A stretch of DNA of 33,757 nt from Thermoplasmata archaeon (GTDB lineage: Archaea; Thermoplasmatota; Thermoplasmata; Lutacidiplasmatales; UBA184), in the NCBI GenBank assembly GCA_022749995.1, contig JAKIWO010000011.1, forward strand, positions 1-33,757, given 5' to 3'. The notes under the pieces are model-generated. The model was not told the DNA's origin, searched no databases, and was given only the letters and a program-made list of their open reading frames with translations. The position numbers were made by a program, and so were the translations under genes. This document shows, piece after piece, positions 521-2,094 of this stretch. Each line of letters opens with the position of its first letter. Positions within the stretch are counted from its first letter, which is position 1.

Positions 521-1381
521 GTGTCGCAACCGTACGCCCACCCGGACGTCCTTGTGGAGACCGACTGGGTCGCCGAGCACCTGTCCGACCCGAAGGTCCG
601 TATCGCCGAGGTCGACTACGACCCGAGCGCGAACTACGCCCTCGGCCACATTCCGGACGCGGTGCTGTTCGACTGGCGAAAGGACATCAACGACCCGGTG
701 CGCCGGGACATCCTCTCGCGGGAGCAGCTCACCGAGCTGTTCCGTAGGTCCGGGGTCGGGCCGGACACCACCCTCGTGCTGTACGGGGACTTCAACAACT
801 GGTTCGCGGCGTTCGCCTACTGGGTCTTCGAGTACTACGGCGTCGCCCGGCTCAAGCTGATGAACGGGGGCCGCAAGAAGTGGATCGACGAAGACCGTCC
901 ATTACCCACCCAAGTGCCCTCCCCCCAGCCTTCCCGCTACACCGCCGGAACTTCCAACGAGAAGCTGCGGGTGTACTTCGACGAGGTCCGCCAGCGGCTC
1001 GGCCAGGTCAAGGCCGGCACCCTCGGGCTCGTCGACGTGCGCGGTCCCAAGGAGTTCTCCGGCGAGGTCACCGCACCCCCGGAGTACCCGAACGAGCACG
1101 CGCAGCGGGGGGGCCACATCCCGGGCGCGACGAACATCCCTTGGGCCCAAGCCGTGAGCGAGAATGGGACCTTCAAGAGCCGCGAGGAGCTCGAAGCGCT
1201 CTACCGTGGCAAGGGGATCACCGGGGAGCACCCCGTGATCACGTACTGCCGGATCGGGGAGCGCTCGAGCCACACCTGGTTCGTGCTCCACCACCTGCTG
1301 GGCTACTCGGACGTCCGGAACTACGACGGCTCGTGGACCGAGTGGGGCAACCAGGTCCGGACGCCGATCGAGAAACCTTAG
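521..1381 (+). CDS. sseA: Rhodanese-family thiosulfate/3-mercaptopyruvate sulfurtransferase (two rhodanese domains)
   Basis: ORF 503..1381; C-terminal active-site loop 'CRIGERS'; N-terminal rhodanese motifs 'GHIPDAVLFDW', 'VLYGD'. GTG at 521 is preceded by 'gagg' and TATA-like 'cctatatgcc' at 481-490; GTG 503 is the alternative start. Confidence 0.9.
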   Translation: MSQPYAHPDVLVETDWVAEHLSDPKVRIAEVDYDPSANYALGHIPDAVLFDWRKDINDPVRRDILSREQLTELFRRSGVGPDTTLVLYGDFNNWFAAFAYWVFEYYGVARLKLMNGGRKKWIDEDRPLPTQVPSPQPSRYTAGTSNEKLRVYFDEVRQRLGQVKAGTLGLVDVRGPKEFSGEVTAPPEYPNEHAQRGGHIPGATNIPWAQAVSENGTFKSREELEALYRGKGITGEHPVITYCRIGERSSHTWFVLHHLLGYSDVRNYDGSWTEWGNQVRTPIEKP

Positions 1382-1386
1382 TCGGG

Positions 1387-2094
1387 CTAGACGCGTCCGG
1401 TCTCGGCAGAACGGGTCCGCGGGGTGGGGCTCGCCTCTCGCCGGACGAGGAACCGGTGGACCGTGCCCTCCCGATAACTGCCGAGGACCGTGTGCCCCGT
1501 GCGATCGGCCCACCGGACCATCTCGAGCGGGCTCGTGGGGTCATCGGAGACGAGTCGCAGAATGTCGCCGGGCGCGCGCAAGGCGAGCTCCGTGTCCAAC
1601 CGCGCGAGCACGGCCGAACATTCGCTCCCTAGTTCGACCACCTCGACGTCGGGCACCGGCCCTTCGCAGCGCACGCGCAGCACCGCGATCCGCGAGGTGA
1701 GCGCCTCGGTCGCCGCGCGCCCTCGGGGAAGACGGTCGACTTCCGCCGGGTGCACCGGTCGGAACTCGATCACCCAGCCCTCCTCGTAGGGGGAGTCGTT
1801 CAGCAGTCGGGGCCTAGCCACGATGGCCCGGTTCGGAACCGCGCCGACTCCGGTGAGGGGCAGCCGCACGGCTCCCGTGTATCGGAGGCTCTCGATCGTG
1901 GCCACGCTTTCCCCGGGGTGCAGCTCGGCACCGACGGTTCGGTGCCGGATCGCGAGGATCCTCCCCGCGAACGCCGAGAGAGAGGAGGTGATCCCGAGCC
2001 GGTACACTCCCGGGGTAGGCGCGGCCCTCACCCAGACGTCGTGCTCGGCGTCAAAGTGAGCGTCCTCGGGGAAAGGGCAGCCGCCGAGCTCCAC
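1387..2094 (-). CDS. GcvH-like (lipoyl-type) domain fused to a TusA-like sulfurtransferase domain
   Basis: N-terminal half 'HDVWVRAAPTPGVYRLGITSSLSAFAGRI...VGAELHPGESVATIESLRYTGAVRLPLTG...LLNDSPYEEGWVIEFRP' follows the GcvH pattern. C-terminal half 'LGSECSAVLARLDTELALRAPGDILRLVSDDPTSPLEMVRWADRTGHTVLGSYREGTVHRFLVRR' follows the TusA pattern. GTG start at 2094. Confidence 0.8.
   Translation of the reverse strand: MELGGCPFPEDAHFDAEHDVWVRAAPTPGVYRLGITSSLSAFAGRILAIRHRTVGAELHPGESVATIESLRYTGAVRLPLTGVGAVPNRAIVARPRLLNDSPYEEGWVIEFRPVHPAEVDRLPRGRAATEALTSRIAVLRVRCEGPVPDVEVVELGSECSAVLARLDTELALRAPGDILRLVSDDPTSPLEMVRWADRTGHTVLGSYREGTVHRFLVRREASPTPRTRSAETGRV

Follow-up and report, generated by a model that had tools for sequence, protein, structure and literature searches.

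Whether a lipoate-type carrier protein can do without its lipoyl lysine, and what it would then carry, is the question raised by a single gene in a Thermoplasmata archaeon (the window is the whole 33,757-nucleotide stretch of contig JAKIWO010000011.1 that was analysed). The gene has a GTG start, and its product joins an H-protein domain to a TusA-like domain (Table 1). The first-pass annotation, made from the sequence alone, described a GcvH-like domain with the lipoyl lysine replaced by arginine, fused to a TusA-like domain, and proposed a lipoate-independent sulfur carrier or scaffold that works with a neighboring rhodanese.

Table 1. Features of the fusion gene and its partner, in window coordinates.
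Feature	Position	Strand	Evidence
LbpA-like H-protein domain + TusA-like domain, 235 aa	1387..2094	-	ORF, Pfam GCV_H and TusA, 76 aligned homologues
GCV_H (H-protein) domain	1699..2055	-	Pfam search of own genome
TusA domain, CPxP reads C-S-A-V	1438..1629	-	Pfam search of own genome; Foldseek top match TusA 3lvj_C
Codon 71, CGA (Arg), lipoyl-Lys position	1882..1884	-	59 Arg, 15 Lys and 2 Thr in 76 homologues
Cys6, LbpA-type N-terminal cysteine	2077..2079	-	76/76 fusions; 23/23 LbpA; 0/21 GcvH
Cys143, LbpA-type C-terminal cysteine	1666..1668	-	76/76 fusions; 22/22 LbpA; 0/21 GcvH
Cys159, pairs with the TusA sulfur-carrying cysteine	1618..1620	-	Alignments to 1dcj and 1je3; 76/76 fusions
Two-domain rhodanese (SseA/TST type), convergent partner	521..1381	+	Two Pfam Rhodanese stretches; adjacent in 61/63 loci; CRIGERS in 67/67

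Domain composition and structure models

Both domain assignments of the first-pass annotation held when profile searches were run. The Pfam GCV_H model matches residues 14–132 with an E-value of 1.2e-19, above the curated cut-off, and the TusA model matches residues 156–219 with an E-value of 1.1e-7 (32 bits, with a curated cut-off of 28.6).

The structure prediction that had been suggested recovered the TusA fold in the C-terminal half, while the H domain was poorly modelled. In the whole-protein model, built from four input sequences (mean pLDDT 50), only the TusA half is usable; its strands and helices succeed one another as in TusA, and Cys159 opens the first helix. In Foldseek, TusA 3lvj_C is the best match (TM-score 0.84 by target), and the next matches are H proteins, which account for the remainder of the chain. 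The H domain modelled alone (mean pLDDT 39) is too poor for distances; in this low-confidence model, Arg71 lies between strands 63–68 and 75–79, as in H proteins.

Distribution of the fusion

The fusion architecture was found in 77 of the 150 related genomes searched, and these 77 fall into three families (f1, f11, and f25) of the class. A class-wide draw gave 99 of 400 genomes, a count that takes in a few partial hits, among them one from a fourth family (f65). These counts rule out a chance or single-genome artefact. In a phylum-wide draw of 390 genomes, full-length copies came from f1 and f11 only, and none of the plasmids searched had a copy that spanned 80% of the query; bacterial genomes were covered by short peptide patterns only. 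The fusion is a real family, present in more than 90 genomes of three families within one archaeal class (the Lutacidiplasmatales and relatives). Its named homologues are from MAGs, such as AcS5-34 and AcS5-116, which are Lutacidiplasmatales (PMC9287336).

No description of an H-protein–TusA fusion was found in the literature searched, which was mostly without subscription papers, and novelty is judged within that body of work. GcvH, TusA, and rhodanese are treated together in one of the papers searched (PMC6067878).

One f25 genome (G544) has a second copy, a paralogue that has diverged (L171:468-1127): its lipoyl site is Thr and its TusA cysteine stands in ‘ECPE’, but it retains all three of the cysteines discussed below.

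Kinship of the H domain

LbpA, the lipoate-binding protein of the sHdr sulfur-oxidation system, is in most cases divided from GcvH by two terminal cysteines (PMC6067878). Both are found in the fusion. In a single alignment, the N-terminal cysteine is present in all 28 fusion rows and all 23 LbpAs, and the C-terminal cysteine in all 28 fusions and in 22 of 22 LbpAs (one row being truncated), while neither occurs in any of the 21 GcvH sequences. The LbpAs of the sHdr-type loci of the same families start with ‘NGCE.PDD’ and end with ‘NIRCMRC’, and the fusion shares with LbpA the GCxxP[DE] motif at the start and RC at the end. Cys6, Cys143, and Cys159 are invariant in an alignment of 59 homologues and in all 76 fusions, down to approximately 32% identity.

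In a maximum-likelihood tree of 81 H domains (149 columns, unrooted), the fusions form one clade (support 100/98) and GcvH another (100/99). When the tree is rooted on GcvH, the fusions fall beside LbpA, with support of 91/94; as the tree is itself unrooted, this sister relation hinges on GcvH being the outgroup. Judged by its sequence, the H domain of the fusion is thus specifically LbpA-like, with both LbpA cysteines and, under the GcvH root, a sister position to LbpA. The earlier description as GcvH-like was correct as to the H-protein domain, and is narrowed here to LbpA-like by the terminal cysteines and the GcvH-rooted tree. An origin straight from the sHdr LbpA that these genomes carry was rejected, given that the fusions are placed as sister to LbpA, not nested within it, although the deep branch has no more than 91/94 support, over 149 columns.

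The fusion differs from LbpA in the exchange of the lipoyl Lys for Arg in most copies, in the fused TusA domain, and in the location of its gene, which is apart from sHdr and, in many cases, in a genome that lacks this system. With GcvH (PF01597) it shares the fold and length of the domain, but it has two extra cysteines and no lipoyl Lys, and the genome holds a separate canonical gcvH. Against the TIGR00527 GcvH equivalog model, the fusion scores 44 bits, well below the cut-off of 115.85. A decayed GcvH was rejected on the basis of the canonical gcvH and of the 13 alignment columns, the three cysteines included, that are invariant across the 76 homologues.

Other H-domain proteins were observed in the course of these comparisons. 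An annotated GcvH on the Acidithiobacillus ferrooxidans plasmid pACF1 (NZ_AP025161.1; L174:787-1233) has both LbpA cysteines (NGCELPED, VQCMRC) and lies near an HdrB-related gene and hemerythrins; it is probably, by these motifs, an LbpA that is carried on a plasmid and wrongly named GcvH. The sHdr-type loci of f1 genomes also encode a second, diverged H-domain protein (L062:6112-6540, L061:9224-9628, L043:5317-5793), which sits on a long branch, keeps the Lys in ES[ED]KW, and has an N-terminal cysteine in the different context ‘ACRIG’.

The lipoyl site

Codon 71 aligns with the lipoyl Lys of H proteins of known structure and encodes Arg, as originally read from the ESLR motif. In the H-domain alignment, Arg occupies this position in 25 of the 28 fusion rows, and Lys in all 53 rows of LbpA, GcvH, and other H domains. 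A wider survey for the ESLR variant gave a mixed picture, with Arg predominating (Table 1) and Lys retained in 15 of the 76 homologues, mostly in an ES(G/V)K context.

On a tree of the fusions built without the lipoyl column, the state of this site changes at least eight times, or at least seven if it is scored as Lys versus non-Lys. The first-pass annotation had regarded homologues with a lipoylated adjacent Lys as evidence against a lipoate-independent protein, and the 15 Lys forms bear in part on that point. This mixture of Lys, Arg, and Thr, with its seven or more switches, suggests that lipoylation is no more than an option for the fusion family. Another Lys as the lipoyl site was rejected, given that Lys reaches an occupancy of no more than approximately 30% in any column of the H domain among the 76 fusions.

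The TusA domain and the cysteines

Residues 148–219 of the fusion align with residues 8–79 of E. coli YhhP/TusA (1dcj), at equal lengths, which places Cys159 on Cys19, and in the alignment to 1je3, Cys159 is paired directly with the YedF cysteine. The identification of Cys159 as the TusA cysteine in the first reading is thus borne out, as is the loss of the CPxP prolines. The cysteine of this motif is kept and its prolines are lost in every aligned homologue (C-S/A/Q/N/T-A), while the diverged paralogue reads CPE. The residues G156, E158, and A161 around Cys159 are also invariant. Cys143, located 16 residues before Cys159, was rightly singled out as a second key cysteine, although a third, Cys6, was overlooked.

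TusA-family proteins carry sulfur on the aligned cysteine, and in TusA the CPxP motif serves as a helix cap and modulates the cysteine (PMC11073785). The fusion resembles this family (PF01206: TusA, YedF, and YeeD) in its fold, sulfur-carrying cysteine, and DDP and C-terminal strand motifs, but differs in the absence of the CPxP prolines from all copies and in the placement of TusA behind an H domain. Among the standalone TusAs fetched, those nearest to the TusA domain of the fusion, ahead of the sHdr TusAs, are found in loci L064 and L059, a weak result over 85 positions. Both of these TusAs adjoin DsrE-like genes, and IscS-like and IscU-like ORFs lie near that of L064, as identified by eye.

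The rhodanese partner

The rhodanese gene ends 5 bp from the end of the fusion gene and contains two PF00581 stretches; its active-site loop, CRIGERS, is the same in all 67 sequences. In the window, the fusion gene is also neighbored by SUI1 and other genes. The proposed link to the rhodanese is upheld by an ortholog, 60–84% identical, which is convergent and adjacent to the fusion in 61 of 63 loci, and this adjacency holds in g3, g7, and f11 loci that lack the SUI1 neighbor. The exceptions are L036, where the rhodanese is missing, and L049 (f25), where it lies approximately 45 kb away on the same contig. In several f25 loci, the rhodanese is convergent within a few kb, with an alcohol dehydrogenase-like ORF between the two genes in two of them. 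Being convergent, the fusion and rhodanese genes are not part of one operon.

The survey of co-occurrence with SseA, as proposed at the outset, gave 76 of 150 genomes with both fusion and rhodanese, one with the fusion only (G042), six with the rhodanese only, and 67 with neither, the relatedness of the genomes being ignored. The partner is an ordinary-looking member of the two-domain rhodaneses (SseA/TST), which differs in its dedicated linkage to an LbpA–TusA fusion, an arrangement not found in the literature searched. A TST is listed for the Lutacidiplasmatales, and the oxidation of thiosulfate-derived sulfite has been predicted for these archaea (PMC9287336).

In two loci, a C-terminal rhodanese fragment of approximately 46 aa lies near the fusion, beside a longer rhodanese match (L167:5623-5760 and L169:1091-1231). 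These fragments are read as duplicated remnants of the partner gene.

A proposed sulfur carrier and its alternatives

Rhodaneses form a cysteine persulfide from thiosulfate. With a confidence a little above even, the fusion is interpreted as a cytoplasmic carrier of sulfane sulfur that works with the rhodanese and uses three protein thiols in place of a lipoyl arm. The single-polypeptide, lipoate-independent carrier proposed in the first-pass annotation is thus still the best reading, and is what we infer from the loss of the Lys, the three thiols, and the rhodanese link. The rhodanese would be loaded by thiosulfate or a comparable donor, with the sulfur bound as a persulfide to the cysteine of its CRIGERS loop, and would pass this sulfur to Cys159, in the way that TusA proteins receive sulfur. 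Cys143 and Cys6 may then accept the sulfur, or free it by closing a disulfide, while the surface of the H domain would dock on a final acceptor, which need not be sHdr. The fusion is hypothesized to be a natural sulfur acceptor for a TST. The points against this reading are the lost CPxP prolines, the convergent rather than operonic arrangement, the six genomes with a rhodanese and no fusion, and the reverse case of G042.

A more far-reaching version, put forward tentatively, is that the fusion represents a lipoate-independent branch of the LbpA lineage, in which the fused TusA domain replaces the swinging arm, with a three-cysteine relay and a dedicated rhodanese, outside sHdr.

The fusion might instead be a redox or regulatory adaptor, in which Cys6 and Cys143 form a disulfide, either structural or a thiol switch, and the two domains are docking surfaces through which the rhodanese is sensed or adjusted, with no sulfur being carried. 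The loss of a motif that tunes the cysteine in TusA (PMC11073785) would fit this possibility, as would the retention of the two terminal cysteines as a pair in LbpA and the lack of an operon with the rhodanese. The adaptor is nevertheless rather unlikely, given that the TusA fold is retained and that Cys159 is invariant together with G156, E158, and A161, which a pure scaffold would not need.

A role for the fusion as an extra carrier, both LbpA-like and TusA-like, that supplies the Hdr-like complex of the sHdr pathway is improbable, even though the H domain is LbpA-like and sHdr is present in 19 f1 fusion genomes and in six sampled f11 fusion genomes. No sHdrB1 was found in 51 of the 70 f1 fusion genomes, the window's own included, and the presence of sHdrB1 is not significantly associated with the fusion in this family (19 with and 51 without, versus two with and 19 without among the fusion-free genomes; p 0.14). 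In the window's own genome, which is 87% complete, sHdrB1 had no match, and neither an LbpA nor a TusA was found apart from the fusion; it has two GCV_H matches, the fusion and the canonical protein, and one TusA match, the fusion. The sHdr-type locus L065, for example, encodes DsrE, two CCG (HdrB-type) proteins, an FAD protein, an Fe4S4 (HdrC-type) protein, an H-protein, and a second DsrE, together with a lipoate ligase and an Mrp-type NTPase, and the fusion was never located within an sHdr locus among the loci read. The role in sHdr sulfur trafficking suggested in the first reading is therefore not supported.

The least probable reading is that of a surviving lipoyl carrier, either with another Lys lipoylated in the Arg forms or with working Lys forms and decaying Arg forms: it could appeal to the 15 homologues with Lys, mostly within ES(G/V)K, but the H domain has no conserved Lys column, and Arg is fixed throughout f1 while 13 columns, the three cysteines among them, are invariant, so that the Arg forms are not decaying.

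Significance of the LbpA-type cysteines

What is new here is the presence of the LbpA-type Cys6 and Cys143 in the H domain, its GcvH-rooted sister position, and the drifting lipoyl site. The role of the LbpA cysteines as sulfur-binding residues is only suggested, by analogy with SoxY (PMC6067878). The lipoyl Lys has on many occasions been lost or replaced in the fusion family, while the two LbpA cysteines have never changed, which makes the family a natural experiment. As they are constant despite the loss of the Lys, these cysteines are predicted to do chemistry of their own, which becomes testable on one small soluble protein. A thiosulfate sulfurtransferase has already been noted in Lutacidiplasmatales of acid soils, and the fusion is a concrete candidate for its acceptor. 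If the fusion works as its sequence suggests, a lipoate-type sulfur carrier would be able to run on cysteines alone in these archaea.

The divergent region upstream of the fusion gene

A 93-aa ORF at positions 2097–2378 of the plus strand is divergent from the fusion gene. It had no match in a Pfam search and appears, by eye, to be zinc-ribbon-like, with CxC...H and CxxC. Upstream of the fusion gene, in the divergent intergenic region, positions 2106–2155 contain a tandem near-identical pair of GCCTCGCT[GA]CCTTTTTCC, identified by eye and possibly regulatory.
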